Made by a program: the position numbers and the translations under genes. A stretch of DNA of 64,000 nt from Paramacrobiotus metropolitanus (Eukaryota; Tardigrada; Eutardigrada; Parachela; Macrobiotidae): positions 248,001 through 312,000 of the forward strand of contig NW_026570234.1 in the NCBI RefSeq assembly GCF_019649055.1. The letters run 5' to 3'. The notes under the pieces are model-generated. The model worked only from the letters and a program-made list of their open reading frames with translations. It was not told where the DNA came from and ran no database searches. Below, piece by piece: positions 22,686 to 47,132 of this stretch; position 1 is the stretch's first letter, and the number at the start of each line of letters is the position of its first letter.

Positions 22686-25059
22686 CACAAAGGTTATCAA
22701 CGTTCTCCGAATATCCAATCTTCGAAGAGATTTTAAATTCTTCATCAAATTCACCGGCATGCTCTTGATTCGGTTAAAGCTGAAATCCATTGCAAAAACT
22801 GTATCAGATCATACGGTCGTACAGAATTTATTAACTGTTACGGAGAAGATACTGTACTGGTTCAAACTTTAAACATCAAATTGCCAGAAATTGCTGTATT
22901 TTTGGGGTCCCAACATATTATATGACTGCATTAATACAGGTTTTAAGTGCTGCGTTTCTTTTACAAATTTTTACTGTACTTCTCCTTTTGCAGTTTTCGG
23001 AAAACTGCAGAAGCGAGAACGGTATTTGAATACCTTAACATGGATTTCTTAAAAAAATTCGTACAACAGGCATAGAGAAAATATATACAAACACGCACCT
23101 CACGTTCAGCACTTCCAGTTCCTTAAGATTGTCGAGAAGACCATCAGGTATATATTCTAGCCCGTTGTTGGATAAATCCAGGCTGGTTAAGAAATCCAGT
23201 CCCTTAAAGCTATCCCCTGACAAGTATTTCAGCCCATTACCGGAAAGGACAAGTTTCTCCAGTTGAGTCAAGTTGGCGAATGTGTTGCCGGGAATGTCGA
23301 TAATCCAGTTGCGATGCAGATTCAGAAACTTCAAATCTTTAAACTCGCTGATCAGATCTCGTGGAAGGTAACGGATGACATTCTGAGATAAATCCAGTTC
23401 CTAGGGGGCACAGAAATACGTCAATCAAATTCATCGTCTAGAGGAGTACATATTTTGGGTTTGTTTCACACATATGTACTAGTACATAACATTCGATCGC
23501 TTTTTTTTAAACTTTAAACTGAATCTGACAGCACAACCTTTCAGCAGTGGCTTGCGATCGCGAGTCCAACAAAATATGCACTTTAACTTTTATAATTGCG
23601 TACTGATAAAAAGATCACGAGCTGAGAAATTAACTGTTAAAAATTTAGCTGCTGCAGCTTTCAAACGCACCTCCAAAACTTTAAGTCCTTTAAACATGTC
23701 AGCCGACAAGTCTCGCAGCGCATTTCTCCCCTAAAAAATAAGAATGTTGCCATTAGAACTAATCTGAATAAACACAAAGTGCGGGTACCGTTGATAAGCA
23801 AACAGTATTATGGGATAATTGCACTTAAAGGTACACTACACTTGCAGTGCAACACACAAGTAAAAGTATTGTATCGGGGGTTAGTTAAGGTCACAAACAA
23901 GACCACTATGCCCGTATGCCGTACCCATATTACCTACATTTATCATCTTACAATGTAGCGTAAATTGCTTTTTCATCGTATCATTCTGCTTACGGTTAGT
24001 CAACCTTACAAGTTTCAAACTTTTCAGTTTAGCCAGCCCTTGAAATGTCAGAGGTGGAAGGTAATTCAGTTTATTATTGGTAAGATCCAGGCTTTCCAGT
24101 CGTTTCAGATTCTCGAAGTGGCTTGGCAGTACCGCAGTCAAGGCATTGTGAGAAAGGTTTAAATAAGTCAGCTCCGTCAGATTTGATAGTAACGTGGAGG
24201 GAATGTCACGTATTCCGTTTTTGCTGATGTTGAGCAGGCGTAATTTTGGAAACTCCACAGGGCGTGTTGCCGATGGGAAATTAATCATCACACGGAATAA
24301 CATCAAACTCTGTATGTCTCGCAATATGGGAATCTCTTCCAGTGATTCCAAAGCAAAATTTTTCATTTGCGGGCTATCACTGTAAAAACGAACTTTAATT
24401 GCGTCATTCATCGCGCCGGATGTGATAATTTTCGGATAAACGGCATACCTGATAGAAATTTCCGAAACTGGACTGCTGACCAAACGTATTGCGGCTTGCA
24501 GGTCTGTCACATCTCGCACCGCTCTGCATGATATTGCTATCCCTTCAGCCGCAGTCGCACCTTTTATTATTGATTAAATTATTATTCAAATCTCTTTTGA
24601 ATTTTCTAGCGAGGAGCATACAGTTGGAGCAATGCTAGTGGGGTCTTCGTGATGCTTAAATAATATTTTTATTACTATAACATTTAATTAGTGTAGATCT
24701 GCTGGAAGCATATTGATGTGTGCACTGGCTGTTGCCAAATAAAACGTTTACGAGTAGGTAATTTCAATGCAAAGCACATCATTTGTTCAACTTACGAATA
24801 AAAACATTTTGCACATAATTATTGCAATATTACCACATTTGCAAACTGTCTTAGTATTCAGATTGATTATTCGCACACATAATATGCGTCGTATTATTAA
24901 AAGAATCAAACTTAGCCTGTAGAGCTGGATGAGACAGCCATACTTACAAGAACACGCCGGAGCTAGGGAAGCCGCCGGTGGGCATAGATCCGCGAAACTT
25001 TGGGCAGAATAAATCAGCACCAAAATGAAAGGAAAGACTACGCAATGGTTGTAATCCAT
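22686..25059 (-). CDS. Secreted leucine-rich-repeat protein
   Basis: Proposed exons: 25059-24948, 24536-24010, 23730-23671, 23399-23099 and 22779-22686, all with GT-AG joins in frame. Exon 1 gives a signal peptide (MDYNHCVVFPFILVLIYSA) and the start of a cysteine N-cap (CPPAASLAPAC), continued by SSISCR in exon 2. From about residue 110 there are at least ten LRRs of 24 residues: LRLLNISKNGIRDIPSTLL, LTYLNLSHNALTAVLP, LESLDLTNNKLNYLPP, GRNALRDLSADMF, LDLSQNVIRYLPRDL, LEKLVLSGNGLKYLSG, LTSLDLSNNGLEYIPDGLL and VSFNRIKSMPVNL. Introns tend to fall between repeats. No membrane segment was found, but the 3' end is unresolved. Such proteins are usually extracellular binding or adhesion proteins; the ligand cannot be inferred. 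Confidence 0.8.
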
Positions 25060-25612: not shown

Positions 25613-28388
25613 CTAATTTCGCTTCTTCTTTTTCAGAACAGCTTGTGCATCAGCGACTTCTTGTTCTTTTTGATACTGTTGTATCAAAGCCTCCTGTGTG
25701 GCCGGTAGACAAGGAGAATAACGGCAGTATTCCATAGTGAATTCACCTTTTCCTTGTGTGGCACCACGTAACTCAGAAGAATACCCAAACATTTCATTCA
25801 AAGGGATTTCCACAAATACGGAGAACCAATCATGTGCAGAATCAGTACCTATATAACAGGCGGCAAATTTTTCAAGTAACTTTCTTAGACACCAGGTACA
25901 AAATTCATACGCTGATTACTCATCTTTCATTTATTAAAAAATTTTTAATTTAATTAAAATGTATTTATGAAATTCTGTATCAAGTTACGGTGTCCTTTAT
26001 TCGTTAATTATCTGTACATTCAGCAAATTTGAAAAGCCTTTACGCTGATGATAAAGCCGAAAAACAAAATCAGAACTTACTTAAACATCAACGTACAATT
26101 CGAAAAAAACATTCCTACCTGTCACCATTCCTTGACGCCGTTGCAACTGCGCTGTAACTTGTCCCTGAAACTCTATCGGCGCGTTGACCTCCACCGTCAT
26201 AATGGGTTCTAAAATCTGCCATTTTCCTTGTTCATAACAATCCTCCATGGCACCCTGCGCCGCCAACATAAAGGCAATCTCATTGGAGTCAACGATATGG
26301 TGAGCTCCATCCTTCACTACAAACCGGATTCCAGATGCCTTTGCGCCCATCAACGGACCCTTTTCGCATGCATGCCTAAACCCCTTTTCAACAGCCGGGA
26401 TGAACGGTTTCGGAAGATTTGTTCCCACTGTCAGATCCTTAAACAGTACTTCCAAATTTCTAGCCGGTTCCAACGGTTCCAGCGTTCCAATAACGCGGCC
26501 GTACTGTCCCGCACCACCACTCTGCCGCTTATGCAGATAGTCAAACTGCACAGGTGCCGTTAAAGTTTCTCGGAAAGCAACCTTCGGCTTGCCGAGAATC
26601 ACCGGAGTATTGTATTCACGCTCCATGCGCTGGGCATAGATCTCCAAATGTAACTCGCCCATGCCTTGACAAATCATTTCCTTCATCTCCCCGTCATAAT
26701 GAACGCGGAACGTGGGATCTTCTTTAGTGAAACGATTAATAGCTTTAGAGAAATTTTCCGTCACAGTAGAATCCTTCGCCGTCAGCGACATGCTAATCAC
26801 AGGCTCTGGTATGTGCATCGACTCCATCGACACCCGGTAATCATGTTGCGTAACAAACGTGTCACCTGACGCACAATCCACACCGAACAACGCACAAATA
26901 TCCCCGGCATACACTTCCGTCACGTCTTCCATATCGGCCGAATGCATGCGGACTAGACGGCCAACCTTGACTTTTTTCCCAGTACGGGCATTCCACACAA
27001 AATCGCCGCGCCGCATACAACCTTGATACACGCGGATGTAGGTTAACTGGCCATACCTGGTCACATCAATCTTAAAGGCCAGGCCGAGGAAAGGATGCAA
27101 GTCATCCCGTGCGGGATTCAAAGGAACATGCTCGGGTTCGGCACCCTTTGTGGTTTCCAAAAGGCCATAATTCTCCCGTTCCGCTGGGTTTGGTAGAAAA
27201 TCTATTACGGCGTCCAACAATGGCTGTACACCCTTGTTTTTCAAGGCGGAGCCTGCATAAAATTTTCCTAGTTGAAGTCTGAATTATTAGTACTAGTCCA
27301 GACCAAATTTCACTGCCAGACAAGGAGCACTTAAAATAAACGTTCCAAGCCATAAATAATTACCGCAAAAGGTATAAACCGGTTATATAACTGTTTTTAT
27401 TGTACTGGCATTTCACTGATTTCAGTAAAAAGTAACTGGAAATTAATAATTAACGACTTTTAAGGTTAGTTTTTTAATCTGCTACCTGTGCCTTAACCAA
27501 AAACATACCAACTAGCACTGGTGTAAACTCCCGTTTCAAACAAGCTCTTCGAATTCCGGCCATCAAATCTTGCACCGTAGGGGTTTTCTCTTCCAAGAAC
27601 AAATTTCCCAAAGTTTCGTCCGCATTGCTGACGTGCTCGATAAGCTCCTGTCTACGATCTTTCACCTCGGCCAACATATCTTTCGGAATAGCATCATACC
27701 GCACCGTTTCGCCATTTTCACCATCAAAATAAATAGCGCGTTCGTTAATTAAATCCACTATACCGCTGAATTTACTTTCCAATCCAATTGGTAGCTGGAT
27801 AAAAGCTGCGTTATGGTGCAATTTCTCACGCATGAGCATCAGAACCCTCTTCGGATCGGCAGAGAGCCGATCCAGTTTATTAATAAACCCAATTGTCGGA
27901 ACATGGTACCGAGCCATCTGCCTGTTCACAGTGAGGGTCTGGCTTTGTACCCCACCGACAGCGCAGAGAACCAAAATTGCGCCATCCAAAACCCGCAAAG
28001 CGCGCTCCACCTCCACGGTAAAATCTACGTGCCCCGGCGTATCAATAAAATTTATGTTCTTCCCGTTCCACTCCGTATACGTCGCGGCGGATTTGATGGT
28101 GATTCCGCGCTGACGCTCTAATTCCATGGAGTCCATTACTGCTCCAACTTGATCTTTGCCTTTCACTTCATGCATCTCCTCTATGCGTCCAGTGTAGTAC
28201 AGGATCCGTTCTGACAAGGTGGTTTTCCCACTGTCGATATGGGCGCTAATTCCCATATTTCGGATCTTTTCTACTTCCTTATGGATGACGATAGCTTTTT
28301 TGCTAGCATAGCGTTGCCTGATGCTGAAGGGAGCTTGCTTTCGCAGAGCTACAAAGCTCCTAGATCCCAAGAACGCCAGCGGGTGCAT
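25613..28388 (-). CDS. GFM1: Mitochondrial elongation factor G1 (GTPase)
   Basis: Three exons, 28388-27509, 27252-26119 and 25848-25613, join in frame to about 749 residues, matching the usual length of about 750. The N-terminus ([12 protein letters not shown], many R/S/K, few acidic residues) fits a mitochondrial import sequence. GTPase motifs are AHIDSGKTT (G1), RGITI (G2), DTPGHVDF (G3), NKLDR (G4) and a serine/alanine-type G5 across exon 2 (GSALKNKG). Domain II onward is complete: [27 protein letters not shown], and the C-terminal [20 protein letters not shown]. The C-terminus ends in KKKKRN. The factor moves tRNA and mRNA on the mitochondrial ribosome. It is head-to-head with the DNAJA gene, but a foldback element separates the two promoters. 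Confidence 0.97.
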
Positions 28389-28949
28389 GGCAAAACATTC
28401 ACCGGATTTGAAAACAAAAACTGCAATCGCAAAGCGATACGACTCCTACGGCTCACAACGTCATACAATTCATGTGAGACGGTAAAACATGAATAGTTCC
28501 TGATCGAACTAAATGGTGTATCACTGCATGGCAATTTATGCTTATTTAGCTAACAATTTAAAATTAACAATACAGTAGAATCTAGATGATGGAAATCAGG
28601 CTTCCAAAACTTTTTCAAATTTTTCAATTTTTATGATGGTCATGTGAAGTCCTCCCGAGAGGAGGCTGGCTTGACTCTAATTTCGTCGATTCCGTCACGG
28701 TATGGACCGAGAGTCAGAAGCCGGCGGTCTGTACCGGACCGGTACAAAATCCACCACCATATGACCTATGCGTGCTTGACATCGGAAATTTAAATGTGAA
28801 TTACATACCACAGTGGGCGGTTCCAATGGTGACTCATCTTAAAACCGTCGTAGCAGTGACAACCGGTTTGTAGTTCAGAGCGATATTACGGCATCGTTCT
28901 AGACATTTCCATCGGTTTCCATTCATTTCTTTTTGCGTAACTTTACGTC

Positions 28950-32241: not shown

Positions 32242-33950
32242 ATGGTTCGCGAAACCGGACTTTATGATGAGCTCGGGGTAAAATCAAATGTGGGAGATGC
32301 GGAACTCAAGAAGGCGTATCGGAAATTAGCGCTGAAGTACCATCCCGATAAGAATCCAGAAGCAGGAGAAAAAGTGAGTGTTAAGGTTTCCCTGTTTTTC
32401 CAGACATTTGTTGCTATAGGTAGCAGTCCAAGTAGGTTTACTGTAAAACAAATTCGTTGCCATAAGACGTTTTTTCGATGGATAGTTCAAGCGAATAGCC
32501 TACGCTTATGAAGTCCTCAGCGACCCAAAGAAGCGCGAGATTTATGATCGTGGCGGAGAACAGGCCCTTAAGGAAGGCGGTGTCGATGCTGGCTCCTTTC
32601 ACAACCCTATGGATATTTTCGAGATGTTCTTCGGGGGTGGGGGTTTCGGTGGAGGGCGAGCCCGTGAGCGGAAGGGCAAAGACGTTATACACCAAATCAA
32701 AGTCACTCTGGAAGATTTATATAATGGAAACACTAGGAGGCTGGCTCTCCAAAAGAATGTGATTTGCAAAAAATGTGATGGTAAGTAACCGTAAGTTCGA
32801 TTTTGCCTTATATATTCATCAGTTTCTGTTAATTCAAACTGTTGCGAGGCAGATCCAAACGCTACATATTTATAGATTCTTAAAAAGATCCGGGAAATTT
32901 ACAAATCAAAATATTTTCAAAATAATTACTCCGTAGCAATTTTGCGTTTTGGTGATGGGCAAAATTTGTCATTAGGTCGTGGAGGAAAAAAGGGTGCAGT
33001 GGAGTCGTGCACGGGCTGTAAAGGATCTGGAATGAAAGTCCGCATTGTGCAATTAGCCCCCGGCTTCGTGCAGCAATCTCAGTCCGTATGCGGTGATTGT
33101 GAAGGACAAGGCGAGCGTATTAAAGCCGAAGACCGGTGTCCCGAATGCATGGGCAAGAAGGTTACGCGTGACCGGAAAATCCTGGAAGTTCACATCGACA
33201 AAGGTAGTTCATTCGCTTTTGCATTGTTTTGTAACTGTATTATATTTCTAAACTATATTAAGTGTTAATAATCATCTGCTTTTCTTTAGGGATGAAAGAC
33301 GGCCAGAAAATTGTGTTTAATGGCGAAGGAGATCAAGAACCAAAACTGGAACCGGGAGATGTGATAATCGTGTTAGATGAGCAGCAGCATTCAACCTTTG
33401 TGCGGAAAGGTCATGATCTCATTATGCGGATGAACATCGGGCTTGTCGAAGCTCTGTGTGGATTCCAAAAAACCATACAGACTTTGGATAACCGAACTCT
33501 TGTCATTACCAGCCTGCCAGGTACTCCTTTAGATTTAGCAATAATATTGTTATTGCTCGTGACTTGGAGTTAGTACGTGTTCCATCAAAATACCAGTTTT
33601 TTTTCTATGCAGGCCATGTGATAAAATACGGCGATGTGAAGTACATCGCAAATGAAGGGATGCCGATCTACAGAAATCCATTTGAAAAGGGACGTCTGAT
33701 CGTTAATTTTTTGGTTGACTTTCCCGATGCCAAAAAGATGACTCCAAAGATGATTGCGGCGTTAGAGAAGTGTCTTCCTCCAAGAACAGAGGTTATCGTT
33801 CCAGACGATGCTGAGGAAGCGGTTCTTGTTGAGTATCAGGAACAGCATGCTCAGGGTGCGGGATCCAGAAGTCATGGGTACGCGTATATGGAAGACGATG
33901 AGGAGGAAGGACACGGTAGACCGGGAGCAGTGCAGTGTGGAACGCAGTAG
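32242..33950 (+). CDS. DNAJA-type (type I) Hsp40 co-chaperone
   Basis: Five exons, 32242-32373, 32486-32780, 32976-33203, 33290-33520 and 33613-33950, join in frame to about 400 residues, the normal length for DNAJA1/2. The J domain holds YHPDKNP with its HPD motif, needed to stimulate Hsp70 ATPase. A G/F-rich stretch ([15 protein letters not shown]) follows. The zinc-binding domain has four repeats: [24 protein letters not shown] and CPECMGKK (the last lacks the final glycine). The substrate-binding C-terminal domain includes [10 protein letters not shown] and [13 protein letters not shown]. The end, QCGTQ, is a CaaX-like farnesylation site as in cytosolic DNAJA proteins. A function in cytosolic protein folding with Hsp70 follows from the family. 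Confidence 0.97.
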
Positions 33951-34152: not shown

Positions 34153-37100
34153 CTAAACAAACAGTTTAATTAAGTTATCTGATCCTGCCGAAAACACCCA
34201 GGGTTGTGTAGGGTGAAATTCCACATCCACAATTCCCAAGCCACTTTCATTTTTTCCGGATTTGGCTTTCAGCATTTTAACCGGCACAATTAACGGAAAC
34301 TGGTTCAGATCGCTGCAAATGATCGCAATAGTTAGTTATTACAGTACAGATGTGTAAATAGTAAATACATACCCGTACGGTCGTTCGGTTGGCCACCTAT
34401 AGTAAGTGAATGGGTGATGGTCGTTCAAAGTGGCCACCTTGAATTACAATTCCCATGAACCGTTTTTCTTCCGGTTATTTTCTTTATCCAGTTAAGAATA
34501 ACGTACCCTTTACAGAGTACTTAAAATTTTTAAAATATCTTGAACCGTTTTCTTGCAAATGCGTCGTTAAAAAAACAGTGACGAAACACTTAAGCCACGC
34601 CACGTGAGCCACTGCACTACACCATGAATAGTGCAATCACCGCCAAACTTGTGCGGCTGCGCTGTCGCTGTGTAAATAACACATGTGCACAGTGAAAGTA
34701 GAAAAAACAAAAAAATCACAGGTTAGTGAGCACAAAAAATTGCCGATATTCACGGAGACCGCTTTGCTTTGGGCTTCGGTGTCGCTTTTTTCTCTTCTAC
34801 CTCACCGCTAACAGTTTCTTCGCCTTTGCTGTGGACAACAACAAACCCAGCCAAACCCACCTTTAGCTGTGAACCCCACACTTCAAAATCACTTAATCAA
34901 AAGATAGCAAAATCAATCAGATTAATTATACACGCATCTGAAATGCTATGCGCAGTCGCACATGCGTGGGGGTTACTGCACTAATCATGGTGTAGTGCAG
35001 TGGCTCACGTGGCGTGGCTTAAGTCTTTCGTCACTGTTTTTTTAACGACGCATTTGCAAGAAAACGGTTCAAGATATTTTAAAAATTTCAAGTACTCTGT
35101 AAAGGGTACGTTATTCTTAACTGGGTAAAGAAAAAAACCGGAAGAAAAACGGTTCATGGAATTGTAATTCAAGGTGGCCACTTTGAACGACCATCGCCCA
35201 TTCACTTACTATAGGTGGCCAACCGAACGACCGTACGGGTAGATGAATAAACCTGCGAGCTGGCATACGTGATGTTGCGATGACATAAATTCACGTTATA
35301 CCAGAAAACGCGTACGCTCATCTTGCACACCGGATAGCGTACATTCTACAGAAAAAAGAAAATAAATTTGCAGAACTTTTTGTAGACGTACTTGTAGACC
35401 ATTCCATGGGAAATAATGACGGATCCATCATCAGAACATGAAGCAAATAAAGGATAGACTTTGTGGAATTTAACTTGTCGCACAGCCTTATTATGATGCC
35501 GCAGTGTTTGGTACGGTTTCACGCTGGCGTCCAGATCAAACCAGCATAAACGGTTATCATAACTGCCCACCAAAACGTTATCCCCTTGCGGGTGTATGGC
35601 TGCACAGGAAATGTACTGGCAAGAAGGTTGCAAAACCTTCTTCAACTGTTGTTTTGACAAGTCGTAGATACGAACCGAACGCTGGGTGCACACAAACAGG
35701 AAAGGCTTGTTAGGGTGGAAAAGCACTCTTTGGACCATTGAAATCTTCTTGAAAGGCATTTGTGAGCGCAGTTTGGATAACTGATGCATTACGACCTGTC
35801 CTGACGCACCGTCAGACACAACCGTTGCCAGATAGTCACCCTTAGGGTGCCATGTTACATCAACCACCTCCTGCAATATAAATAAAAAATTGTACACAGT
35901 ACTTAAACTCTGCAGCACTCAGTTTATCAGTTGCTGTTTCAGTGCCTGCGCCGCTAGTTGCGTAAAATAAACTCATGTAAAATATCTTTTTTGAAAATCA
36001 GTTTGCATTCGTAAACCATATACAATTTTTGTATCATTACTCGTCCACTAGTAGCATAAAATAAGCTTCTGTATTATATAATTAAAGATATAATATTATG
36101 TATTATGAAAATTACGTTTGTGTCCGTTAACCGAATTTTTCGAACCAGCTTTTCTACAACAGACATAACTATAATAAACATAACTAATTAACTATCAATA
36201 AGAGAGTTCAATCATTATTAATTTTTCTCAAGCAAAGTTTAATTCTTAAGCTATCCTGCTCATTGTACAGAGTACAATAGACTGCAGCATATACAATACA
36301 CTATGCGCCCGTGTAATAATGTTGCGAAACGCCGTTCAAGTTTCAAATGATTTAGCAAGCAACATATACTCGTAACAAACCATCACCTTTGTGAGAGATA
36401 ACGTCAACCGTAGTCCATCGCTTTTATCCTGATCGCCTGCTCTAGTAAACGTAGCAAATTCCCCGTTAGGGTCCGGATTCCCAAGCTCTGCCAGCAATCG
36501 GTCAGTGTTGGACGATACTAATTTGTCACCAACGTCCGGTGTAAGAAAATGAATCACTTTATCTCTACAAAAAATAATCCTCTCAAAAATTATCAGAGCG
36601 CCTTAAAAATACCAAGAATGCGATACATACACACTGGCAGCTAACAGGCAGACATCAGGTTTCGGACACCAACTAAGAGCCGCAATCCGACCTTTTAGAC
36701 GGTACGTCCGAAAGCATCGGCCAGTGGAAATTTCCCAGATCTTCACGGTACCATCGTCAGAACCTGATAGAAAAATATTGTTGAGGGATTTTTGTAAGCA
36801 TTTACCGATCAACATAGTACAAACTCTACTGAAATCCTTACCGGAAGCCAAGAACTGACCATGGCTGTGGACAGACAAACAACGTACGACTCCCGTATGC
36901 CCTTTGTAAACCTAGAAAACACATGATATAATGATGGCATATTCTATAAAAAAAACGATTAACTCAGCATTAACATACGATCGCTTCTCGCGATGGAAAA
37001 GGCTGAAGATCTTTCGGTTTCGGTAAAACAGGAATTAGGTCTTCGGGGTTCACGTTAACTTTCATCTTGCGCTGCCGTGGACATAGATACAAGTCCAAAC

Positions 37101-40038: not shown

Positions 40039-40839
40039 TCACACCTTTGGGCGATGCCCCATGGACAGCAACGCCATCAGCGTCTTGTTTCCGGTCAGAA
40101 TACTTCGCAATCTGGATATTTCCTCAGTTAATAACTGCGACTCCTTCTGAATCTGCTCCAATTCACGCTGTCCTTCCGTATGCTTCTTTCGCATGACGGT
40201 TCTATATTTCTCCAAATCCGCTAGATATTTTTTCTTCCTCTCTCGGTTCATCCGAGCGTAGACGGCGTGCGCAGACAGAGGACCACTATCCACCCGCTGT
40301 CGTCCCTTGCGGTGGCCTCTGTCGCCTTTCGATCCCAAAGACGCGCTAACACCGTCCTCTCCTTCTCCCGAAACACTGATGCCGTCCTCATCCTGGTGAT
40401 CGGTAAGCGTGGGCATAATGGGCATAGAATCAAAGAATGCGGGCATAGAATATTCTGTGCGACTAGTGGGTGATGGGGGCACTGGCGTCGGACTCCAGCT
40501 GGGCGATGTAACGGCAGGACTATTCTGCGCTACTCTGGGGAACGCCGAGGATGTCGGCGCTAAAACGGTGTAGGTTGGTTCTGGGGCTTGATGCGAAAAC
40601 CCACCTCCGGACATCGTGAAAACGGATTGATTAGGGGTAATTGTTGAAATTGGAGACGAAAAAAACGAGTCGAATGTCTGAGAATCGATAGCGTTAATCG
40701 GTAGATGAGGCTGCAGTGTTACGTAATGCGCAGGAGTCGAATCGGAGTTGGTAGACTTTACAGCTAATGGTTCTCTTGGCTTTAAAGGGGGGTATCCATT
40801 CAGTGGTGGGACTTTCAAGAATTCCCCTATGTCATCCAT
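40039..40839 (-). CDS. CREBZF: CREBZF-like bZIP transcription factor
   Basis: One intronless frame of 266 residues from the ATG at 40839 (MDDIGEFLKVPPLNGYPPL). The N-terminal two thirds is proline/serine/threonine-rich and low in structure, as in activation regions, with an acidic patch (DHQDEDGISVSGEGEDG). A basic run (GDRGHRKGRQRVD) precedes the bZIP at the C-terminus: ARMNRERKKKYLADLEKY as basic region, then a leucine zipper (LEQIQKESQLLTEEISRLRS) and the tail LTGNKTLMALLSM. The tail resembles the conserved end of CREBZF (Zhangfei), ANETGLARLL. In that family the basic region departs from the usual bZIP consensus and the protein often acts through partners, as a co-regulator in stress responses. 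Orthology is likely but based on the bZIP end only. Confidence 0.75.
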   Translation of the reverse strand: MDDIGEFLKVPPLNGYPPLKPREPLAVKSTNSDSTPAHYVTLQPHLPINAIDSQTFDSFFSSPISTITPNQSVFTMSGGGFSHQAPEPTYTVLAPTSSAFPRVAQNSPAVTSPSWSPTPVPPSPTSRTEYSMPAFFDSMPIMPTLTDHQDEDGISVSGEGEDGVSASLGSKGDRGHRKGRQRVDSGPLSAHAVYARMNRERKKKYLADLEKYRTVMRKKHTEGQRELEQIQKESQLLTEEISRLRSILTGNKTLMALLSMGHRPKV

Positions 40840-42202
40840 GACGGACGTGCGCCACAATGGCTTCCAGTGAACTAAACATCAAGATTGCCATAGTTTGGAT
40901 GGTTTCAGAACCAAGCATGGATCGTGACGCTTCAACTTACCAAATTCTTAGAAAATATGATTCGATAAATACGCAGAAATCACATACAGAATATGGAGAA
41001 TTCCTCAGGCATCAACAAAAACTATCTACTAATTCTTTCAAAAACTAAACGTTATACAATCCACCAATATGTCTTAATAAATCTCGTAGTGACAGTGACG
41101 CTCCAAATTCTCAAAAAACACCTTTTAATAAATTCTGTATTCTGGATTTTTTTGAGATCACCTTGCCAGTCTTCGTGACTCTGCAGGCTTGTACGGTAGC
41201 TTGCTTTACTGTACGAAGCGGGAGGGGAACTGCCGCACATACATCAATATCGCACGCCAAAAGTCGCAATTCTTATTGGTTGCGCGAAGCCTCAACCGCT
41301 AATCCAAACAGCTGCTCTACAAACCTGCCAGTCACGTATCTTGCCGATCGGGATATCAAAGCAGTCACGTGCCGCGCTAGTGTCAAGCACCATGGAGCAT
41401 GGCGTCATCACATACGTGCCCACCTACGAGTAGGCACCTACTACGAGTAAATAGGTGCAGTCATATACGTAGCTGCCTCCCCGCCAAACCAAAACACTCA
41501 AGCCGAAACAAAACAAAAGCCAACCGGGTCCGAAATGCCGGAGTCCGGACGCTTTGGCATCAAATTTTGTATTATTCAATCCAATGTACAGTATTTAACA
41601 AGTATACAGATACTGTAGATTAAATGTCCTGGGTGCGCTTATACTGTGGACTGGGTTATCTTTACCACTACGATTCCGATACCGCTACGCTTTTGATTAA
41701 AATTGTCGATAAAAAAATCCAATGTTCCTATAAACATGGAATTTTTTTTGAGTGAAATCTGCATATAAAGTATATACCCGCATTCACAGGTGCATTCCAG
41801 AAATTGAATCTCGCATATTTTCGTAAAACGAAGCTTGTGACTATTACCTGATACTGCGAAGCAATGTCAAAGAAGCTATGTACTAGCATCTGTTTTAGAA
41901 ATAAAAATCGCGATCGGGCTCACCGTGTATACAAAATAGTGAAAATACGATAGGTGTAAGTAATCATAACAGTGGATGCGGCGAATCATGCGATTCTACA
42001 ACACATGCACAAATACCGGTTTCGATTGGACCTTGTTGCGGTTATCGCACGGCATCCCCTACCGAACATTTAGCGCACGCCTTTTAAATTGTGGAATCTG
42101 CCGTCGGGGAGATTCCTCGGGTATCATGATACCCAGATTCACGATACTCGTATGGTGATCAGCCTCATAGCCTGCATGCAGCTTTGGTGCCCGTTTCAGT
42201 AG
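40840..42202. other. Intergenic region, no supported gene
   Basis: Short frames only. Local repeats of CACCTACGAGTAGGCACCTA type occur near 41420-41455. It includes upstream sequence of the small charged-protein gene that follows. Confidence 0.4.
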
Positions 42203-42239
42203 TATTTAAATGGCATACACCGAGTTCTACGACTCATTC
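42203..42239 (+). promoter_or_regulatory. Core promoter of small charged-protein gene 1
   Basis: TATTTAAA at 42203-42210 is a TATA-like box. An initiator-like TCATTC has its A at 42236, 33 bases after the first T of the box. The spacing is the same as in the promoter at 44943-44978. The predicted 5' leader is about 119 bases. Confidence 0.5.
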
Positions 42240-42354
42240 TAGCAATTCTCATGAACTTAACTACAAAGCTGATAATTAATTATTCATTTATTCTTAAATC
42301 CTTGTGCGTGAACTTTACTTTTTTGTGACAGCTTCATTACTACTCGTTTCCGCA

Positions 42355-42534
42355 ATGGACTCCAAAACCCAGACCAAGGAAAAGGTTGAAGTGAAGGACG
42401 GGAAAATGACACACGACATCAAGTCGGAGACCAAAGGATGTGGTGGATGTGACCGGAAGGAGCACACAGAAGAACACCACAAAGTTAAGGATGGCAAGGA
42501 GACGCACACCTACAAATCGGAAGTAAAGCATTAG
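42355..42534 (+). CDS. Small highly charged, probably disordered protein 1
   Basis: 59 residues from an ATG in good start context (CGCAATGGAC); an in-frame extension upstream lacks an ATG. The protein is nearly all K, E, D, H, T and S with almost no hydrophobic residues, so it should be unfolded and heat-soluble. It contains two copies of one motif: EKVEVKDGKMTHDIKSETK and HHKVKDGKETHTYKSEVK. Between them lies CGGC in GCGGCDRKEH, a possible metal or redox site. The motif recurs once in the gene at 45062. I know no named family with this sequence. The style resembles desiccation- or stress-related hydrophilic proteins (LEA-like), but that is inference. Confidence 0.65.
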   Translation: MDSKTQTKEKVEVKDGKMTHDIKSETKGCGGCDRKEHTEEHHKVKDGKETHTYKSEVKH

Positions 42535-43311
42535 GACCGTTTTGCGATGGACTGGATCCACTTCCTTGCGGGCCTGACCTTTCATCCCGCGATCGATGGG
42601 AGGGACCTTTTACATTCCTAATAGAATACGTTCGTATCAGTTGTGAAGATCAAAAAAAGTGTTTTTAAATGTCTGCTTAACCCGTTTAGGCGTTTAGATC
42701 TATCGTTTTTGCATTCCTTTCTTAGTTTTGTATGACGATAATGACATGACTGAAACTTTGTGACCTAACTTCAAGTATTAAAAAGTGGCCAAGACTTCAA
42801 GAATTTCATGTGTGCTGTTAATCGTACGTGACGGTACGAATACCTTAGTGGTATTATATTTTGGCCGTAATTTCGGCCGACATCCAACGCAGAACGCACC
42901 AAAGCACAGCTGATATACCTATCAGTTTTAACAGAAACTTAAATAAGTACAAATGTGCCATACATTTTTTTGTGCACTTGTACCTTAATACTATAGTAAC
43001 TGATTTCATCGTACTGCAAGCTAAAGATACTTAATGCTATTAACAACACTGTAATCAACTTAATATTATATGGTCATTGAATGAGCACCATTAACAAAAT
43101 TCGGTTTTAGTAAACAAAAATTTAATATCTATATAACGGTTTTGGTAAACACGCGCACTTCTGCTAACGTATCTGCTGTACTTTACCGCACAGGCGCACA
43201 CACTGTGTGTATTAATCGTACTGTAGCCGTGTATTAATCGTACTGTAGCCGTATTATCGTAGTAAATGACTAAATGCATGCCACGGTTGCCACCTCCTTG
43301 TACACCATAAT
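42535..43311. other. Intergenic region downstream of charged-protein gene 1
   Basis: It contains the probable 3' UTR. Near 43215-43250 the string GTATTAATCGTACTGTAGCC is repeated in tandem. No gene is supported. Confidence 0.4.
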
Positions 43312-43820
43312 AATGGTGGAGGTCAATTACATTTGGGTAACTGTTGCGCGTCGGGTAATCGAGAGCCGCGTAAAAAATTAGCCATGACTCAGCAGAAAAA
43401 CAATCGTCCAATCGTGAGTCGAGTACGCTTCCGTGCCAAGAAAGAAATTGAACACCGTCGTGGAACTGAAAAACTCATTTTTAATGCTGTGATGTGGTAA
43501 ATGTGGTATCACGTCAAAAAAGTTGATTATGAGTTTTGGATTGTGACTCTGGGTCGTTAGATTTACTTTTGGTCCAAACACAGACAAATTTTGTTAATCT
43601 GTGCAGGAGAGTTACGAGTTACTCGTAGTTTGGGTAATGGTTGCGCTTCGACGTCGAAGCGCAACGCTTACGCGGACAAGTAAGCTGAAAACCCATCCCA
43701 GATTTTGTGACTGCGAATCAGAATGTTTGCTTGGTTACACGCTGTTACGTCACATTTTTTACGCGTTTTCCCGTTACCCGACGCGCAACGCTTACCCAAA
43801 TGTAATTGACCTCCACCAAT
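43312..43820. mobile_element. About 509-bp MITE-like element with 67-bp inverted ends
   Basis: Positions 43312-43378 and 43754-43820 are reverse complements with few mismatches (GGTCAATTACATTTGGGTAA against its complement). The interior has no coding frame but holds a perfect 26-bp palindrome at 43640-43665 whose GTTGCGC/GCGCAAC ends repeat a motif of the terminal arms. The flanking target duplication is not clear. Confidence 0.75.
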
Positions 43821-43914
43821 GGCATAATTCATGATATTAGTAAATACCCACAACTAATACATCCTATAGTCCATACCAGGCAGTGGGCACCGAAGGGTTT
43901 TCATCGACCCCTTC

Positions 43915-43946
43915 ATATATGTATATATATATATATATAATAATAA
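43915..43946. repeat. AT dinucleotide microsatellite
   Basis: A run of TATATG/TATATATA followed by ATAATAATAA. It is simple sequence directly downstream of the MITE-like element. Confidence 0.85.
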
Positions 43947-44011
43947 ACCTAGAATAATACTTACTAATCATGTTTTGTTGAGTAGGAGCAGCACGAGAAA
44001 TGACAATAATA

Positions 44012-44096
44012 TTACGTGTTACGCAAATTACGTGTTACGCATATTACGGGTTTCGCAAATTAGACGTGTTACGCATATTACGTGTTTCGCAAATTA
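44012..44096. repeat. Tandem repeat, 16-bp unit, about five copies
   Basis: The unit ATTACGTGTTACGCAA alternates with variants GCATATT and GTTTCGCAAATT, so the higher-order period is about 32-34 bp. Confidence 0.8.
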
Positions 44097-44194
44097 GTAG
44101 TAATTAGTAAAGTATACAATTTTTTGAAAGTAGTAGATACTGCATAATAGTTATTGTACGGTATTCAGCAGTGGCATTCTATATAATATATTTG

Positions 44195-44308
44195 CAGCAC
44201 CAGTACCATAATAATAAGTACCAGTACCATTTAATAAGTACCAGTACCATAATAATAAGCACCAGCACCAGTACCAGTACCATTGCAATACCAGTACCAT
44301 AATAATCT
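44195..44308. repeat. AGTACC-rich tandem repeat
   Basis: Repeats of CAGTACCATAATAATAAGTA and shorter CAGTACC/CAGCACC units cover about 110 bases. Simple-sequence expansion; the complementary strand gives an artefactual Tyr/Trp-rich frame. Confidence 0.8.
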
Positions 44309-44942
44309 GCCAAATTGTGGCGAAAATGAGAAGTCTAAAAGCCATTAAAATCTGGTGATGATCTGCATTAAAAGCACTTTGTAAATTTTGCGATCAGTTT
44401 CATGTGACTTCTTTGCTGTTGCGCGTCCACAACAAATCGTGCCCATTACAATTCCCAAGTTTCAGTGACAAAACGGCCAATTCCGCTATTTTCGGGGTTG
44501 CACCATTGCAGCAATAGTCCCTCCTGGGATTTCCACAGATATGCGTTTGTCAAACAACCTTGGGAAAATACAGATATACGTATATTGCAACGTAACGTTG
44601 GAGGTGTGACTCGACTACGATAGTGAAAGGCGCAACAAAACACTTAAAGTAATGCATAACATGTACAATACTGTACGTAATACTAATGCCTATATACTAT
44701 ACACTAATGTAAAAATTAGTTGCATATCTATACAACATTTTATGTATGCATCTAAATGTACCTATTTGTTTCTCGTATTAACTGTAAGTAGTGGCGCGGA
44801 AAACTCACCGCACGAACAATAGAAGTAAGGCAACTGAGAAAATCGATCGTGAGCGGGAAATACCGTCCAAAATTCGGCGGAAACTACCGCTGATTTGGTG
44901 GTATACCTACAAGTGATGCCTAAGGGAGCTATCGTTGTTGGG

Positions 44943-44978
44943 TTTATAAAGTGAATCCGAGTCGCACTAAACGTCAGT
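44943..44978 (+). promoter_or_regulatory. Core promoter of small charged-protein gene 2
   Basis: TTTATAAA at 44943-44950 is a clear TATA box. TCAGT with its A at 44976 is a good initiator, 33 bases from the start of the box. The predicted 5' leader is about 86 bases. TATA-Inr architecture is typical of strongly or conditionally expressed animal genes. Confidence 0.6.
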
Positions 44979-45061
44979 TCACTGAACAATATTGAGAAAC
45001 TTTGAATTTTTTTCGATTTTGACTTTACATTCCTTCTCCTAACCGACCAATCCTCATCACA

Positions 45062-45262
45062 ATGGAACGATCTGTGGGCGAGAAATTTCAGGATGCTAAG
45101 GACGCTTACAAAGGAGGCCCGGGTGATATGGAACGAGTGACCAAAGAGAAGCAGGAAGTCTCCGGTGGGCAGGTGAAGCACGAAGTGAAGAGCGAAGTAA
45201 AAGATGCTCGCACCACTGGAGAGAAACTGACCGACGCCAAGAATGCATTCCAGGGACCTTAA
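45062..45262 (+). CDS. Small highly charged, probably disordered protein 2
   Basis: 66 residues from ATG in strong context (TCACAATGGAAC). It begins with GEKFQDAKDAYKGG and ends with GEKLTDAKNAFQGP, an internal duplication of a 13-residue unit. The centre, EKQEVSGGQVKHEVKSEVK, matches the EKVEVKDGKMTHDIKSETK unit of the gene at 42355. Charged residues dominate, with Gly and few hydrophobics; the DAK-x-A-F/Y-x-G units could form short amphipathic helices on drying or binding, as in LEA proteins. No named family was recognised. It is intronless, driven by the TATA box about 120 bases upstream, and probably related to its neighbour by duplication and divergence. Confidence 0.7.
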   Translation: MERSVGEKFQDAKDAYKGGPGDMERVTKEKQEVSGGQVKHEVKSEVKDARTTGEKLTDAKNAFQGP

Positions 45263-47132
45263 AAGACATTTGTGGTACTGCGGCAGAGCAGCGGTTTATC
45301 GATATCATTGCATTGTTGCAAGTACTAATTAATATTGCGGCAATTTTTGTGGCAGGGTTTTTTAGCACGGTACGATCAAATGACATGCGAACCATGCTGT
45401 CTCATTTTCAGCATCTCAAGTTTGGCTTGGCGTATGTATAGTTTACTAATTACTAGTGCACAATATATTGTACATCATTAATGTCTGATGCATGACATCG
45501 TCTCGTATATTGCTGCAGTTCTTAAATTTACTGACTGCTAAATGTAATATGCTGAAAAAAAAATGGACGATGTTGAGCATTCGGGTCGAATTCTGAGCAA
45601 AATGAATTATAGATATGAAGTACTATAGTTAACTATAAAAATAAACAGACAGTCGATGTATAGTACTTATAGATGCAGAGGGATGCACAGCCTATTAAAA
45701 TACCATATTGTGGTCGTGATTTTCGCAGAATTAAAAGTTCGATTTCCCCTACTGCCAAAAAAATTACCGTTTGAAAAACTTCGATAAACACCGTCGTGCT
45801 TGGTATTGTAAACCTATTATAGCACATGTACTGTACAGCGAATACGATAATACTATATAGTATTCGAAATTACCTATCGTTATTATTAAGTATCCGACGT
45901 ACAGTAAGTAGTTACCTTACCTTACTGATTCCGAATGATTAATGCCCGATATTGTTTTTCTTGGCAACTTTGCTGAAACTTTGTTATCTGCATATTAAAA
46001 ATGGAGTACAATAAAAAAAGCAAGTGTGGTACAAGTACTTAACTTACCAATCAGTAGTTGCTATTTTAAGTCGCAAAAAACGGTAGTTTTGTCGTTTAGT
46101 GCACAGGTGGTTAAAACATTACTCATGTTTATGTTAAATTAAAAACACATTGAGTTATCATTCTTTAATATGAGTAGAACCAGAAAAAGGCATTAATAAC
46201 AGCCTGTAATTCTTGGTATTATAATCGTATTTGGATCTGGGGTAGCAACTACCGGAGTAACTATTTTCAAGCGCCCCGTAAATAAATGCGTGGGCACCAA
46301 ACTGGTGATGCAAGAAATGTACGACACAATGAACAAATATAGAGAGAATCAATAATTTTATAATGCTGTGGTAAAGTTATCACGAGTGCGGCTCTCCTCT
46401 GCTTTCCAGCTGGTGACCTTTATCAACTGCCCGTGGCCCACATTTATATACCCAAACATTTACTTGAAGTACCAGTATTTGTCTTCCGTTCGTTGTGGAC
46501 ATTCTCCCGATTTGTTTTTATCGTACGTACGTATTCCGGATTGCCGAAAGACTAATACTAACAGGGAAAGGCATGTGACGATACTGTACAACATCTCCAC
46601 GTCATACTGTAGGCCACGTACACAGTCCATGAACGATTCCCGATATTTTCCGAACATAAGGTGCAAGAGCACCTGTTCGAATCCCTCACACCTTCCCCGT
46701 TTTTGCACGATTTTGCTTAACAGTTAATAAAATATACGAGTACAGTACTACTAAGTATTAGAAGAAGCGACAAGGTGCCACCAGGTGTACTGGTGTAGTG
46801 CCACACTGCCACTTCCTTATTAATACTTAAAAACATAAAGGTTACGATCTCCAAATGACTGTAATATAGTATACCGCACCACGGCAAATTGGTTCATATA
46901 TACTCGTATATGGCACGTGACTTTCTGCTGCTACCGTCATCCAGATACGGACATGGAAGTTTTAAGTAATTACGCAGCGCCCGATATCTTTGTGCCCTGT
47001 GAACTTGGAGTCGGCATATACAGTATAACTATACGGACTAATTTACTTACACTGTCACACATATTATTTTTTTGAACTTTTCGGGTGAAGCGGCAACTTT
47101 CAGGATTCAAAAGCGAGTTCAAATGTAATTTT
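45263..47132. other. Intergenic region, no supported gene
   Basis: Frames of up to 119 codons near 46.4-46.7 kb on both strands lack domains. TATATAAATG on the minus strand (46450-46441) is a TATA-like string, but no ATG-started frame follows it at a sensible distance. GTAC- and AGTACT-type strings are frequent. Confidence 0.4.

Follow-up and report, generated by a model that had tools for sequence, protein, structure and literature searches.

The window analysed here, a stretch of 64,000 nucleotides that spans bases 248001-312000 of contig C14, carries two short protein genes on its plus strand, which we call gene 1 and gene 2. The preliminary description had placed an intronless frame of 59 residues at 42355 and one of 66 residues at 45062, and both were confirmed as open reading frames. 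The two genes and the features that belong to them are as follows (positions are those of the window).

42083 to 42680, plus strand: duplicated unit of gene 1, its promoter and its 3' flank; found again at the C22 locus with 75% identity
42203 to 42210, plus strand: gene 1 TATA box (TATTTAAA); the initiator A follows 33 nt downstream, and the spacing at C22 is identical
42234 to 42239, plus strand: predicted gene 1 initiator TCATTC (A+1 at 42236), a consensus match; TCATTC and the CTAGCAATT that follows it are both kept in C22
42355 to 42534, plus strand: gene 1, intronless open reading frame of a 59-aa protein; two hairpin motifs with a GCGGC/His-rich linker between them
42379 to 42435, plus strand: gene 1 motif copy 1 (EKVEVKDGKMTHDIKSETK), predicted beta-hairpin with its turn at D15-G16; evidence from shuffles, AlphaFold2 and a DNA match
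42478 to 42528, plus strand: gene 1 motif copy 2 (HKVKDGKETHTYKSEVK), an internal repeat, predicted beta-hairpin with its turn at D46-G47
44907 to 45313, plus strand: duplicated unit of gene 2 and its promoter; found again at two loci of contig C92 with 70-73% identity
44945 to 44950, plus strand: gene 2 TATA box TATAAA, kept in C92a and C92b
44974 to 44979, plus strand: predicted gene 2 initiator TCAGTT (A+1 at 44976), a consensus match at +31
45062 to 45262, plus strand: gene 2, intronless open reading frame of a 66-aa protein; predicted helix, hairpin motif, helix
45074 to 45112, plus strand: gene 2 first unit, GEKxxDAKxAY, predicted helix (residues 5-17)
45146 to 45202, plus strand: gene 2 motif (EKQEVSGGQVKHEVKSEVK), predicted beta-hairpin with its turn at G35-G36
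45215 to 45253, plus strand: gene 2 second unit, GEKxxDAKxAF, predicted helix (residues 52-64); DNA match to exon 3 of the C14 gene

Between the two genes there is a MITE-like element of about 505 bp (43314-43818), the 65-nt terminal inverted repeats of which are 88% complementary, and about 40 near-full copies of it occur genome-wide with 86-98% identity. Short degenerate tandem repeats of the ACGTGTTACGCA and AGTACC types also lie there (43998-44097 and 44196-44320). Elsewhere in the window, the minus strand carries exons of an LRR protein (23881-24573), of an EF-G that is probably mitochondrial (26081-28445) and of a WD40 protein (35346-35918), together with a bZIP-like frame with a basic, leucine-zipper-like C-terminus (40039-40878), for which Pfam bZIP_Maf gave only E 0.44. 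The plus strand carries a weak match to a C-terminal fragment of DnaJ (33492-33950).

It had been proposed that each gene has a TATA box and an initiator spaced 33 nt apart. This spacing holds for gene 1; in gene 2 the distance is 31 nt, and becomes 33 if it is counted from TTTATAA at 44943. The 64 kb were scanned for TATA[AT]A or TATTTAA followed at a distance of 29-34 nt by YYANWYY, a pattern into which TATTTAA was admitted because gene 1 carries it, and two pairs were found on the plus strand, those of genes 1 and 2 only, and three on the minus strand. A TATA box is present in seven of the eight family members examined (genes 1 and 2 and five of the six intact relatives from elsewhere in the genome), and in six an initiator-like site follows 31-34 nt downstream; in the relatives C22, C92a, C92b and C8 the distance is 32-34 nt. 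Promoter and leader are both included in the duplicated units. No heat-shock, CRE, AP-1 or DAF-16 motif was common to all promoters. The leader of gene 1 contains an out-of-frame upstream open reading frame of 25 codons (42251-42328), provided that the start at 42236 is correct, and the C22 paralog has no ATG where this frame starts.

The motif E-K-x-E-V-x-x-G-x-x-x-H-x-x-K-S-E-x-K, which the two proteins had been said to share, fits both EKVEVKDGKMTHDIKSETK of gene 1 and EKQEVSGGQVKHEVKSEVK of gene 2. The ungapped match of 26 residues between the two proteins scored 68, whereas shuffles scored 28.9 +/- 5.6 and none of 2000 reached 68. Furthermore, profile-profile alignment of the gene 1 and gene 2 subfamilies (hhalign) gave E 4e-6 over 19 columns, which lie over the motif. 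Both internal repeats were also real: none of 2000 shuffles reached the score of the second motif copy of gene 1 or that of the duplicated GEKxxDAKxAxxG unit of gene 2. The second copy of gene 1 had been described as shorter, but it aligns over 26 residues and is longer than claimed. The GCGGC ascribed to gene 1 is present; it is retained in the C22 paralog and absent from the C10 paralog.

A search of the organism's own genome yielded six more intact members, which supports the earlier view of a small family whose members have diverged from one another around a single motif. The paralogs of gene 1 are C22 (95% identity) and C10 (63%), and those of gene 2 are C92a and C92b (65%). Broken or strongly diverged copies lie at C92:421584, on C273 and at C14:1160738. 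The remaining two intact members have 94 residues and, as predicted from the sequence, are spliced. One of them (C14:147961-148691) lies 142 kb from gene 1 and has three exons, MTEHVTKEKHVVHADGSETHEVKSEIK, DARSLGQKIDDAKDAFKSDPTKMQQVTK and EKVEIKDGKSTHEVKTEVKDPRSLGEKLTDAKDAFVGNK, separated by phase-0 GT-AG introns; the other is encoded on C8 by two exons. Both are made up of a unit of about 40 residues present twice, a repeat whose score none of 2000 shuffles reached in either protein, and the unit doubled in the C14 gene is the motif followed by GEKxxDAKxAF. Gene 2 aligns without gaps with exons 2 and 3 of the C14 gene, with 61% identity over 64 residues, and lacks the intron. Gene 1 has the motif twice and no helix unit. 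In nucleotide sequence, exon 3 of the C14 gene, its last, matches gene 1 (85% over 40 nt, 42377-42416) as well as gene 2 (79% over 72 nt, 45179-45249). Since this one exon matches both genes, the derivation of their motifs from a single source is well supported; that is, the exon match and the profile alignment both point to common ancestry of the motif.

The preliminary description also supposed that the proteins are disordered. The composition is in agreement with this: gene 1 (GRAVY -1.76, Gly 8.5%, charged residues 46%) and gene 2 (GRAVY -1.28, Gly 12.1%, charged residues 39%) are very hydrophilic, like all members tested, and the charge-hydropathy index of every member tested is negative, on the disordered side. 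AlphaFold2, on the other hand, predicted hairpins in gene 1 (strands 2-14, 17-29, 35-45 and 48-58, turns at D15-G16 and D46-G47) and a helix-hairpin-helix in gene 2 (helices at 5-17 and 52-64, and between them strands 23-34 and 37-48 flanking G35-G36). The mean pLDDT was 86.9 for gene 1 and 82.9 for gene 2, from alignments of three sequences each, and the five models disagreed, with mean pLDDT spreading over 40-87 and 45-83, respectively. The prediction is plausible because the predicted turn coincides with the invariant Gly of the motif and because the first intron of the C14 gene separates the predicted hairpin from the helix. On these models the disorder of the proteins is doubtful, and the folding of such short charged chains may be limited to drying or binding. 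A sequence search of the PDB with both proteins gave no match. Foldseek and VIA-align found nothing over Z 3.6 for the gene 2 model and just generic four-stranded sheets of unrelated proteins for the gene 1 model (best Z 8.1, 56 residues); no solved structure was convincing, and we claim no structural relationship.

Because AlphaFold2 yields structure and not disorder, it is conceivable that these are small ordered proteins, either adaptors or binders of a ligand or metal, in which the motif is a stable hairpin, the GEKxxDAKxAF unit is a binding helix, and no protectant role exists. This is the main rival to reading the proteins as protectants, and we regard it as possible though doubtful. The prediction of hairpins and helices at a mean pLDDT above 80 agrees with it, as do the conserved His and charged residues on the hairpin, the CGGC of gene 1, and the EHTxEHH and VKDGKETH that are common to all three members of the gene 1 family. 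However, the C10 paralog does without CGGC, a hydrophobic core is nearly absent, the charge-hydropathy index is negative, and the confidence of the five models spreads as widely as described above.

We then consider kinship with known families. Hydrophilins are defined by Gly above 6% and GRAVY below -1, and genes 1 and 2, as well as the C8 and C10 members, lie within these limits; they are also small and highly charged. In contrast, the 94-aa member on C14 has 5.3% Gly and falls short of the Gly limit, and the modular hairpin/helix sequence was found in no named hydrophilin. A short, charged, amphipathic helix unit of the DAKxA type, which is repeated, is a feature in common with group 3 LEA proteins (LEA_4). 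Half of the repeat of the present family, however, is a predicted beta-hairpin, which LEA_4 is not known to have; the LEA_4 profile (PF02987) gave no match to genes 1 and 2 with the limit set at E <= 1, and none to four relatives with the limit at E <= 10. In Pfam and NCBIfam no relative was above the cut-off; a weak Pfam match to FAM192A_Fyv6_N (E 0.001) lay under its cut-off, and matches in PHROGs and NCBIfam were at chance level only. No prokaryotic relative or bacterial source was found for the two genes.

CAHS proteins, which to our knowledge are restricted to eutardigrades, form a large family in this genome (20 matches to a Ramazzottius CAHS1 query; best E 3e-69) and mark the host as a eutardigrade. 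They share with the present family the genome, the hydrophilic character and a lineage-specific expansion. Comparison of the genes with four local CAHS frames was not clearly above shuffles, and in the best case, gene 1, 20 of 500 shuffles reached the score; a relationship to the N-terminus of CAHS was likewise weighed and rejected. CAHS proteins have about 230 aa, and their conserved helical region is required for filament and gel formation (PMC9592077), whereas genes 1 and 2 encode only 59-66 aa, from which the CR1-CR2 helical region is absent, and no clear sequence kinship was found. TDR1, with 146-291 aa (PMC11233135), differs from them in size. As judged from these comparisons (Pfam, NCBIfam, CAHS and prokaryotes), no named family fits genes 1 and 2. 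It is quite unlikely that they belong to a known desiccation family (LEA group 3, CAHS, SAHS or MAHS) that diverged past easy recognition, although the DAKxA-type charged helix is reminiscent of the LEA 11-mers and the genome is rich in CAHS.

In order to judge whether the frames are constrained, we compared the differences per synonymous and non-synonymous site. These were 0.276 and 0.021 for gene 1 and C22 (Fisher p 1.5e-5), 0.476 and 0.192 for gene 2 and C92a (p 3e-4), 0.594 and 0.193 for gene 2 and C92b (p 9e-7), and 0.343 and 0.064 for C92a and C92b. That is, non-synonymous changes were 2.5- to 13-fold below synonymous ones, with Fisher p from 3e-4 to 9e-7 over the four paralog pairs. A neutral ratio would have spoken against the genes according to the preliminary description; they pass this test, with a synonymous excess in all four pairs, and by this measure the family members are under purifying selection. 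It is highly improbable that the frames are chance ones or functionless decaying duplicates, a reading which the broken or diverged copies might suggest but which the coding constraint largely refutes at the family level, the frames being intact and the promoters conserved as well.

The explanation that we favor, with middling confidence, is that of a lineage-specific tardigrade family composed of two shuffled modules, the products of which would be hydrophilin-like intracellular protectants expressed from promoters of the inducible type. Module A (EKxEVxDGxxxHxVxSEVK) is a predicted beta-hairpin on a DG or GG turn, and module B (RSLGEKxxDAKxAF) a predicted amphipathic helix. The ancestor was likely a gene of 94 aa, interrupted by phase-0 introns and ordered A-B-A-B, as on C14 and C8. 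Gene 2 (B-A-B) would be the intronless equivalent of exons 2 and 3 of this form, and its intron may have been lost by retroposition or by deletion. Gene 1 (A-linker-A) may have kept the A modules alone, and each gene was probably duplicated later along with its TATA promoter. Counting against this explanation, besides the structure predicted by AlphaFold2, are the C10 paralog, in which a TATA box is missing at the usual distance, and the link between genes 1 and 2, which depends on about 20-26 residues.

As for function, no secretion signal is evident in the proteins and their net charge is near-neutral. TATA-type promoters are typical of inducible genes. Because of these features, the hydrophilin-like composition and the desiccation-tolerant host, our leading guess is that genes 1 and 2 are candidate stress-protection proteins, which most likely act inside the cell and are possibly inducible. 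The hairpins and helices may form, or firm up, upon loss of water or upon contact with partner proteins or membranes. A bolder form of this proposal, which we consider rather unlikely, is a tardigrade-specific anhydrobiosis family, neither LEA nor AHS, in which hairpin and helix exons were shuffled and the intronless members are driven by TATA boxes for rapid induction.

In conclusion, the family of genes 1 and 2 is solid, whereas its function is what we infer. It is constrained, modular in origin and apparently undescribed; a search of the literature found neither the peptide strings nor any paper describing such a family. The stress tolerance of tardigrades is ascribed to a small number of hydrophilic families specific to the lineage (CAHS, SAHS, MAHS and Dsup), and both gene prediction and proteomics readily overlook proteins of fewer than 70 residues. 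A family with a modular origin, inducible-type promoters and purifying selection offers concrete candidates to test, and it would also be an example of short intronless genes arising from the exons of a longer gene.
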